Of a stretch of DNA of 52,354 nucleotides, positions 5,860 to 7,221 are shown piece by piece; the first letter of the stretch is position 1; each line of letters opens with the position of its first letter. The notes beneath the pieces were generated by a model. It saw only the letters and a program-made list of their open reading frames with translations, was not told the DNA's origin and searched no databases. The stretch lies in contig JAFTKY010000017.1 of NCBI GenBank assembly GCA_017453005.1, positions 1 to 52,354 on the forward strand, given 5' to 3'. Made by a program: the position numbers and the translations under genes. The stretch is from Clostridia bacterium. GTDB taxonomy: Bacteria > Bacillota > Clostridia > Oscillospirales > CAG-272.

Positions 5860-5920
5860 TATATTTCAACATCAAATTATCCGCGATCATGTCGATAAAC
5901 TCGCTATTGGTGGGCTTTGC
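5860..5920 (-). repeat. spo0A 3'-end copy 1 (outermost)
   Basis: Read on the - strand this encodes [25 protein letters not shown], matching the last 21 codons of the intact spo0A with a few changes (Ala to Asp, Arg to Met, Lys to Asn) and several silent differences. It sits next to the terminator at 5805-5843, so it is probably the ancestral gene end. It has no start codon of its own. Confidence 0.8.
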
Positions 5921-5924
5921 TATA

Positions 5925-6038
5925 GGCTCCCTTGTGTAAAGGGAGCTGTCACCGTAGGTGACTGAGGGATTGTCTGTTCCGATCTTTACAACCCCTCCGT
6001 CAGCCTTCGGCTGCCACCTCCCCTTGCACAGGGGAGGC
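5925..6038. mobile_element. MITE-like palindromic element A
   Basis: This element of about 114 bp has imperfect terminal inverted repeats of about 45 bp. The left end carries the hairpins GCTCCCTT/AAGGGAGC and TCACC/GGTGA. The right end, read in reverse, gives the matching pair CCTCCCC/GGGGAGG and a CAGCC/GGCTG hairpin. There is no coding capacity. It is of the same family as the element at 6307-6435 and separates spo0A 3'-end copies 1 and 2. Confidence 0.7.
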
Positions 6039-6043
6039 TTATT

Positions 6044-6108
6044 AGTACAACTTGTATTTGAGCCTCAAATTATCCGCAATCATTGCGATAAACTCGCTGT
6101 TTATGGGA
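6044..6108 (-). repeat. spo0A 3'-end copy 2
   Basis: The - strand encodes [25 protein letters not shown]. It differs from the intact gene mainly at third codon positions and by one Thr-to-Ile change. The stop codon is intact. The match starts about 187 bp from copy 3 and about 193 bp from copy 1. Confidence 0.82.
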
Positions 6109-6114
6109 AATCTC

Positions 6115-6143
6115 TTGACAAATTACACTTTTTGAGATATAAT
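6115..6143 (+). promoter_or_regulatory. Consensus promoter for a candidate small RNA
   Basis: Perfect TTGACA (6115-6120), 17-bp spacer and perfect TATAAT (6138-6143) on the + strand, inside the spo0A 3'-end repeat region and directed opposite to spo0A. Confidence 0.75.
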
Positions 6144-6149
6144 TTCTTT

Positions 6150-6230
6150 GTCGAAACTGCAGGCGTATTTTTCCTGTCTCTCGCTTTATGCGAGCGTCTT
6201 GGGCACGAGGCAGTTTCGGCTTTTTCTTTT
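6150..6230 (+). ncRNA. Candidate small structured RNA within the spo0A 3' repeats
   Basis: Starting about seven bases after a perfect promoter, an RNA of about 80 nt can fold into one closed structure. CGAAACTGC (6152-6160) pairs with GCAGTTTCG (6210-6218). Inside are the hairpins CAGG/CCTG (6160-6176) and CTCGC/GCGAG (6180-6194). The tail GCTTTTTCTTTTT gives an intrinsic terminator. No open reading frame of note is present. It points toward spo0A from between 3'-end copies 2 and 3. I recognise no known family (not SRP, 6S or tmRNA by visible motifs). Confidence 0.5.
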
Positions 6231-6300
6231 TATATAATTTGTATTTCAACCTCAAATTATCCGCGATCATCGCAATAAACTCGCTATTTGTGGGCTTTCC
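6230..6300 (-). repeat. spo0A 3'-end copy 3, stop codon lost
   Basis: The - strand encodes [23 protein letters not shown], identical at protein level to the end of the intact Spo0A. The stop codon is replaced by AAA, so reading continues into KKKKP. Silent differences from the intact gene remain. The offset from the intact end is 210 bp. Confidence 0.82.
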
Positions 6301-6306
6301 TCTATT

Positions 6307-6435
6307 GCCTCCCTCCGGGAGGGAGGGGGACCACGAAGTGGTGGAAGGAGCCGGCGTAAATGTGAGTTTGGATTTACTGCATTGTACCGCACTCTCCCTC
6401 AGTCGCTACGCGACAGCTCCCTCCCGGAGGGAGCC
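6307..6435. mobile_element. MITE-like palindromic element B
   Basis: This element of about 129 bp has terminal inverted repeats. The left end has CCTCCCTCCGGGAGGGAGG and ACCAC/GTGGT; the right end has CTCCCTCCCGGAGGGAG and GTCGC/GCGAC hairpins. The outer hairpins and the GACTGAGGG-type inner motif relate it to element A. It abuts the stop codon of spo0A, so the spo0A transcript runs directly into it. Confidence 0.7.
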
Positions 6436-6438
6436 TTT

Positions 6439-7221
6439 TTAGTACAATTTGTATTTGAGCCTCAAGTTATCCGCAATCATCGCAATAAACTCGCTATTCG
6501 TGGGCTTTCCACGATTGTTTTGAATTGTGTAGCCAAAATAACTATTCAGCGTATCCACATCTCCTCTGTCCCACGCGACCTCGATTGCGTGGCGGATGGC
6601 ACGCTCGACGCGGCTGGTTGTGGTCTGATATTTCTTCGCGACGGAAGGGTAGAGGACCTTGGTGACGCTGTTGATGATGTCGCTGTCTTTTATCGTAAGG
6701 AGGATGGCAGTGCGGAGGTATTGGTAGCCCTTGATGTGCGCGGGGACGCCTATCTGATGGATAATGCGCGTGACCTGCGCCTCGATGTCGGGCGTCTCGT
6801 CGGCGGGAAGCTGCGCCGAGTAATATTCGGGCGAGCCCGAGTTCTTTCTCTTTTTGAGGAGATTTTCAAGGTTTTGGATAAGATTTTGCGTGTTTACGGG
6901 CTTGATAAGGCACAAGTCCGCGCCCGCCTCGAGCGACTGCACGAAAATATTTTGATTTGATACGGGAGAGAGCAGAACTATAATGGGCGCTTTGTCCTTG
7001 CCCGACTTTACCGTACGCACCAGCGACAGTCCGTCGATCTTGGAGAGCCATATATCTGCGATAAGAATGTCGGGGCGGGAGCGGTTTATCATGGACAGCG
7101 CCTCCTCGCCGTTTACAGCCTCGTCTATGTATCTGCAGCCCGAACGCGAAAGCGCGTCCCTGAGCATATTTCTTTGAGAGTTATTTTCGTCGGCTATGAG
7201 TATTTTTGTTGTGTATTCCAC
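6439..7221 (-). CDS. spo0A: Sporulation master response regulator Spo0A
   Basis: This 260-residue protein has a receiver domain (about 1-120) and a Spo0A-type C-terminal DNA-binding domain (about 148-258). The receiver has the acidic pair D11/E12, phosphoacceptor D56, S85 and K107. The effector domain shows the family signature [26 protein letters not shown] and [18 protein letters not shown], and ends with [17 protein letters not shown]. Phosphorylated Spo0A switches cells into sporulation by binding 0A boxes. The start is GTG at 7221 with AGGAGG ten bases upstream. The upstream partner spoIVB, usual in Bacillus, is not present here. The gene stands alone, and its 3' end is repeated three times downstream (5860-6300), separated by MITE-like elements and a candidate small RNA. 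Confidence 0.97.

Follow-up and report, generated by a model that had tools for sequence, protein, structure and literature searches.

Four copies of the spo0A 3′ end in a Clostridia genome: a probable stack of small gene-less integrative elements

The last codons of spo0A occur four times in series in the genome of a Clostridia bacterium (Oscillospirales, CAG-272; GenBank assembly GCA_017453005.1). The stretch of DNA analysed here, which we call the window, covers 52,354 nucleotides of contig JAFTKY010000017.1. On its minus strand the last 22 or so codons of the gene recur with start-to-start distances of 210, 187 and 193 bp (Table 1). The reading that we think probable, while granting it appreciable doubt, is that three small gene-less integrative elements, resembling microCIMEs, were inserted one after the other at the 3′ end of spo0A and make up this array as a stack. 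It rests on four in-frame ends, unrelated spacers, a mostly synonymous divergence, sites that in other genomes show a single end or are differently occupied, and integrases found at the site.

The fourfold end had been proposed in an original prediction made from the letters alone, and the places found here agree with it within a few bases. A repeat search delimits four direct repeats of 81 nt each (5847-5927, 6040-6120, 6227-6307 and 6437-6517), the identity of which to the reference copy is 73-88%. When copy 3 is used as a query against its own genome (1.56 Mb in 103 contigs, 68% complete), the other three copies are retrieved at E 2.5e-19, 1.9e-14 and 7.7e-10, while nothing else in the genome is matched better than E 0.38, so that the four-copy repeat is not a matter of chance. 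The four ends are in register, and attachment-site direct repeats bound each unit. Their translations are 22, 23, 22 and 21 residues long, from copy 1 to copy 4. Compared with copy 1, synonymous and non-synonymous nucleotide differences number 7 and 0 in copy 2, 5 and 5 in copy 3, 9 and 5 in copy 4. The same 19-residue stretch is still encoded by copies 2 and 3; copy 4 has decayed to NSEFIDMIADNLMLKYNL. It had been claimed that the protein is kept while many third codon positions differ: the third-position differences are there, yet copies 3 and 4 also carry amino-acid changes. The outermost copy does lie, as had been anticipated, beside what is probably the original terminator.

Table 1. Features of the spo0A region of the window
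Feature	Position	Strand	Basis or detail
spo0A, functional gene	6439-7221	-	Response_reg and Spo0A_C (Pfam)
Copy 1, last 23 codons of spo0A including stop	6439-6507	-	Repeat search and translation
Copy 2, which has lost its stop codon	6229-6297	-	Repeat search and translation
Copy 3, in which F-P-I replaces K-P-T	6042-6110	-	Repeat search and translation
Copy 4, the outermost and probably native end, with the changes A to D, R to M and K to N and a premature stop	5849-5917	-	
Terminator-like hairpin 3′ of copy 4, probable native spo0A terminator	5810-5843	-	
HAD-type phosphatase gene, downstream neighbour of spo0A	4866-5720	-	
Unit 1 spacer, GC-rich four-hairpin palindromic element between copies 1 and 2	6298-6438	-	Arms 6309-6325 and 6417-6433
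Unit 2 spacer, of the promoter and structured-RNA type, without resemblance to units 1 and 3	6111-6228	+	
Promoter-like TTGACA-17-TATAAT (12 of 12), reading towards spo0A	6115-6143	+	Unit 2
Predicted short RNA (putative transcript): closed multi-branch fold, then T-run	6150-6231	+	z -3.3 for 6145-6230
Unit 3 spacer, second subtype of GC-rich palindromic element	5918-6041	-	

The units, of 187, 193 and 210 bp in the window, leave spacers that are too short for integrase, relaxase or conjugation genes. What they hold instead is structured DNA. In unit 1 a GC-rich palindromic element takes up almost the whole spacer. The segments 5925-6039 and 6309-6433 both belong to a palindrome family to which we return below. 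Unit 2 has its layout, and otherwise no sequence, in common with units of two other genomes, G006 and G355, where reading by eye finds TTGACA-17-TATAAT and TTGACA-17-TACAAT in the same place and direction, with fold z values of -4.7 and -6.2. Judging from these predicted signals and folds, units of the promoter type (unit 2 and those of G006 and G355) may produce an RNA. Over the window region promoter-like sites are at chance level (2 found, shuffle mean 2.7), and terminator-like sites are above it (8 found, shuffle mean 1.7). No known RNA family reaches its gathering score in positions 5600-6700 of the window (best E 0.13) or in loci L043, L072 and L071 (best E 0.011). Outside itself, spacer 2 of the window finds weak matches of 17-41 bp, mostly to the promoter stretch (best E 3.6e-4), and some match of this kind occurs in eight of 12 genomes of the genus, its own among them. 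The G355 spacer is present in G355 alone among 21 genomes; that of G006 is full-length in G006 alone among 12, with matches of about 30 bp in two others.

The check that had been proposed, a comparison with spo0A loci of related genomes, was made at several scales. Ten of 11 relatives of the same genus have one spo0A end, and the remaining one, G006, has two ends 180 bp apart; by reading, the HAD-type phosphatase gene lies 3′ of spo0A in six of the 11, G006 included. Arrays are also found in other genera. The family sample comprised 395 genomes, 331 of which matched a 25-residue spo0A end, and all 38 other genomes with at least two matches, or noticed as candidates at first look, were searched again. 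Six of the 38 have short arrays (G006, G024, G103, G188, G191 and G355); in the other 32 the second match was on another contig, too weak, absent, or in another gene of the same contig. This makes seven genomes with arrays in four genera, the window's own genus included, a lower bound since a few second matches at contig edges (G192:C109:3-62, for example) may be arrays broken by assembly. The 11 units measure 128, 180, 187, 193, 201 (three times), 204, 210, 211 and 212 bp: ten of them lie within 180-212 bp, and the 128-bp unit is that of G024. In all seven genomes the functional spo0A end is intact. Scanning the contigs of GTDB r220 for pairs of strict ends at a distance of 155-215 bp gave 12 stretches, with three real arrays (L174, L181 and L185, in G103, G006 and G188, respectively) and nine that we judged false on reading; three stretches in viral contigs, under the same definition, were all false. 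An order-level search covered 394 genomes, 354 of them with a match; some genomes outside the family matched more than once.

There were several look-alikes. The second match of G387 lies in a separate Spo0A_C-only gene: from position 1919 of L037 onward (contig C86 of that genome) a Spo0A_C gene without receiver domain, confirmed by Pfam, stands just downstream of spo0A. Reading of L082, from about position 1685 onward, gives a similar separate gene, again without receiver domain and just downstream of spo0A, in G102. A second spo0A end on contig C2 of G362 looks like the gene of another strain, not a displaced end. L175, L183 (Cytobacillus purgationiresistens) and L179 (Macrococcus epidermidis) contain intergenic tandem repeats of short 'ATCGCCGATAAA'-like words, which the array pattern also picked up and which are unrelated to spo0A.

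Two sibling species, G355 and G191, are the clearest case and allow us to see one site in two states. Their outermost end (YRLN), the terminator and the downstream sequence are alike by reading, and the functional end is KYKLY in both; at one point between these landmarks the two genomes hold unrelated units. The reading frame of the gene is intact and the old end is left downstream, as is expected of site-specific integration.

A useless gene copy that mutates freely would favour non-synonymous changes. Over the 11 neighbouring pairs of ends in the seven genomes we counted 83 synonymous and 29 non-synonymous nucleotide differences, hence most of these differences arose while each end belonged to a working gene. 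The copies of the window are as close to the spo0A ends of other species as they are to each other. The right half of copy 1 is 2 nt away from both G007 and copy 3, and its distances to copies 2 and 4 are 5 and 9 nt; L053 is 1 nt and G001 2 nt away from copy 2; the nearest to copy 4 are G001 and L073, at 4 nt each. Simple tandem duplication or slippage, the outcome that the original prediction had named as fatal to its idea, is therefore disfavoured for the window: the spacers are unrelated, 10 of the 11 relatives have one end, and the copies are not each other's nearest relatives. Within the end, the exchange point is not consistent between neighbouring pairs: in six of the 11 it is the right 11 codons that differ more (in G188, 1 difference on the left and 9 on the right), in the other five the left 11 (in G024, 5 on the left and 0 on the right).

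The 3′ end of spo0A is an attachment site, used by prophages and by integrase-carrying elements. The motif KPTNSEFIA was found in 44 stretches of viral contigs, not all of them demonstrated prophage ends. Twelve of these, L068 included and L123 with fragments only, have an L068-like tyrosine integrase no farther off than about 400 bp; none was seen near the other 32. One viral contig has an exact 117-bp copy of the end near both its ends, some 17.6 kb apart. Two of the 395 family genomes, G270 and G362, which belong to the genus of G191 and G355, have a related tyrosine integrase that starts about 190 bp after the spo0A stop. Above cut-off, Pfam recognises in this integrase the catalytic domain and SAM-like N-terminal domains; Int_N matches below it. 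Like the units described here, these prophages and elements (L068, L129/L142, G270, G362) target the 3′ end of spo0A and replace the gene end, but they carry a tyrosine integrase and other genes where the units of the window carry none. Just after the outermost of its four ends, G103 has a 60-bp stretch that shares 85% identity with the G270 integrase leader (E 1.5e-14); next comes an open frame whose likeness to the integrase start is by eye only, tblastn being not significant (best E 2.1). Spo0A-like ends were present in 11 phage records; in the three that were examined, spo0A has host-like surroundings and no integrase directly after it. An integrase of this kind was not found at E ≤ 1e-50 in the genome of the window, 68% complete, nor was an integrase element seen at the window site. 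The spacers have no similarity (best E 0.011, a 15-mer) to the integrase-element sequences at hand, a set without the right ends of the G270 and G362 elements. A literature search limited to open-licence papers did not find spo0A named as an integration site, which is weak evidence. A side remark concerns the leaders, compared in L167 (1030-1220), L168, L068 and L170 (about 3140-3240): by eye, one common leader, possibly regulatory, precedes the integrases of G270, G362 and L068, and its hairpin around 'ATTGGGT' stands immediately before the start codon.

We infer a circle, movement in trans and an order of events along the following lines. A tyrosine recombinase would cross the chromosomal spo0A site with the matching site of a circle of about 190-210 bp, so that spo0A would keep its body, receive its last codons from the element and have its old end pushed downstream. 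Each element would thus come down to an attachment site, the new gene end that it brings, and structured DNA of about 120-145 bp. Age would decrease from the outermost copy, the native end, to the innermost. A prophage or integrative element of the kind that uses the site in relatives would provide the recombinase in trans, and the junction of the circle would be expected to join the unit end to AAGCCCAC... That small elements had repeatedly entered the 3′ end of spo0A, each bringing a replacement end, was the core of the original prediction; it is the best explanation that we found, in view of the single end of 10 relatives in 11, the site of G355 and G191, and the integrase elements at the same place. 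Window unit 1 and the unit of G188, a genome of another genus, can be aligned from end to end with junctions that match on both sides, which favours a unit that travels as such, although their identity of 83.6% is no higher than dispersed palindromes show in general (in G188 the median is 84%). Against serial insertion stand the absence of such an integrase among what is assembled of the genome, the mixed left and right pattern, the dissimilarity between spacers and integrase elements, and G188, whose near-identical palindromes with differing ends would need a later exchange between neighbouring units. We may tentatively go one step further, to a proposal that we hold rather less likely to be right than wrong: the units would form a class of their own, miniature elements that borrow spo0A-specific tyrosine integrases (the integrase counterpart of MITEs), have a hairpin or a structured RNA under a promoter as their whole cargo, pass from genus to genus and alter the final codons of spo0A with every insertion.

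It had been stated that no such small element was known. This has to be corrected: microCIMEs of 130-220 bp, without genes, bounded by gene 3′-end direct repeats and placed in tandem at the 3′ ends of protein genes, have been described in Streptococcus salivarius (PMC7563491). There they are in tandem with an ICE, a decayed ICE or an IME, always farthest from the target gene, and the method used could detect tandem cases only (PMC7563491). The units reported here are like them in their gene 3′-end repeats, lack of genes and size (128-212 bp), and differ in their target, in what they contain (palindromes or a promoter–RNA unit) and in forming series of as many as three immediately behind the gene, where no integrase element was seen (PMC7563491). 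The window site does not follow the S. salivarius arrangement. In Dehalococcoides, another study reports tandem islands at ssrA, 15 of which lack integration genes and were suggested to be CIMEs (PMC3146451). They too are serial insertions at the 3′ end of one gene bounded by end repeats, but they carry genes, depend on a serine recombinase integrase and have a 20-bp repeat (PMC3146451). The units match a known but sparsely described kind, the microCIMEs, in size, lack of genes and position; descent from an ICE or IME, which belongs to the CIME definition, would be putative for them. What is new is the target spo0A, the serial stacks that have no integrase element residing beside them, and what the units contain, either dispersed GC-rich palindromes or a promoter with a foldable RNA. 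The range of microCIMEs, until now housekeeping genes of streptococci, would come to include Clostridia and stacks that have no resident element. In spore-forming lineages the spo0A 3′ end stands out as a recurrent integration site, and past insertions can be read from the array in their order. Should movement in trans be shown, one could test how small a piece of DNA suffices for a site-specific mobile element.

The most serious competitor, unlikely though worth keeping in mind, would see scars in the array: integrase-carrying elements inserted in turn, the insides of which were later deleted almost entirely to leave two end copies and some 60-146 bp. Insertion followed by internal deletion is the classical origin of CIMEs, integrase elements do use the spo0A site, and G103 keeps an apparent integrase leader outside its last end. 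Yet random deletions would not give ten units out of 11 within 180-212 bp. Besides, the spacers look like dispersed chromosomal palindromes or promoter–RNA units, unlike the element sequences at hand, and units of the same make, with matching junctions, occur in two genera.

Some arrays invite a more local account, in which an end and its palindrome were duplicated in place and the gene end was then exchanged with the spo0A of another species by homologous recombination. G103 has four ends and three nearly identical units with spacers 99.3-100% identical, while G188 has the order end, palindrome, end, palindrome, with palindromes 98.4% identical and ends that differ at 10 positions. For the window we find this improbable: its three spacers differ, G355 and G191 have unrelated units at one site, and recombination would need to have exchanged, time after time, no more than about 40 bp.

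There is little chance that the GC-rich palindrome is itself a transposable repeat that duplicates a target of about 70 bp on insertion. It is true that palindromes take up the first and third units of the window, as they do the units of G103, G188 and G191. The genome of the window has 12 further matches at E ≤ 0.01, or nine places after merging neighbours; the four-hairpin form has no match at E ≤ 1e-5 in G006, G007 and G103. Left and right flanks were compared at 37 loci, with mismatched flanks as control. The three palindrome loci placed between two spo0A ends (L203, L219 and L099) score 106-136. Among the other 34, L217, L202 and L216 score 72-281 and L197, L198 and L205 score 37-40, all six being places where palindromes or other repeats are in tandem or clusters; L233 (26) and L100 (23) are barely above control, and the remaining 26 are not above it. 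Normally, therefore, the palindrome makes no such duplication. Furthermore, promoter–RNA units build the same structure without any palindrome repeat, and target duplication leaves divergent ends unexplained. By sequence spacers 1 and 3 are members of the dispersed palindromic, MITE-like repeats of the same genomes, but elsewhere these repeats do not sit between gene-end repeats, clustered loci excepted, as those of the window do.

Diversity-generating retroelements and integrons both have layouts with gene 3′-end repeats downstream and hairpins between them, which the array recalls, but rewriting from a downstream template or a cassette array of this sort is hardly credible here, the differences being mostly synonymous, of many base types and not adenine-specific, the spacers lacking a cassette gene, and no reverse transcriptase or integron integrase being seen by eye among the ORFs of positions 3000-10000.

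Finally, the palindromes also occur away from spo0A. The four-hairpin GC-rich form is strongly amplified in some species, with 36 matches in G188 (L188-L218). In the genome of the window, on contig C103 (about 3112-3620; 1500-2010 of L101), the end of a DUF559-domain gene (Pfam E 1.3e-27) abuts a GC-rich palindrome, and the last codons of this gene recur, in decayed form (GVCEYIDAVVKA), at a second, near-identical palindrome. The same junction of DUF559 end and palindrome appears again in L209 and L214 of G188, so that DUF559 genes seem to be associated with GC-rich palindromes.
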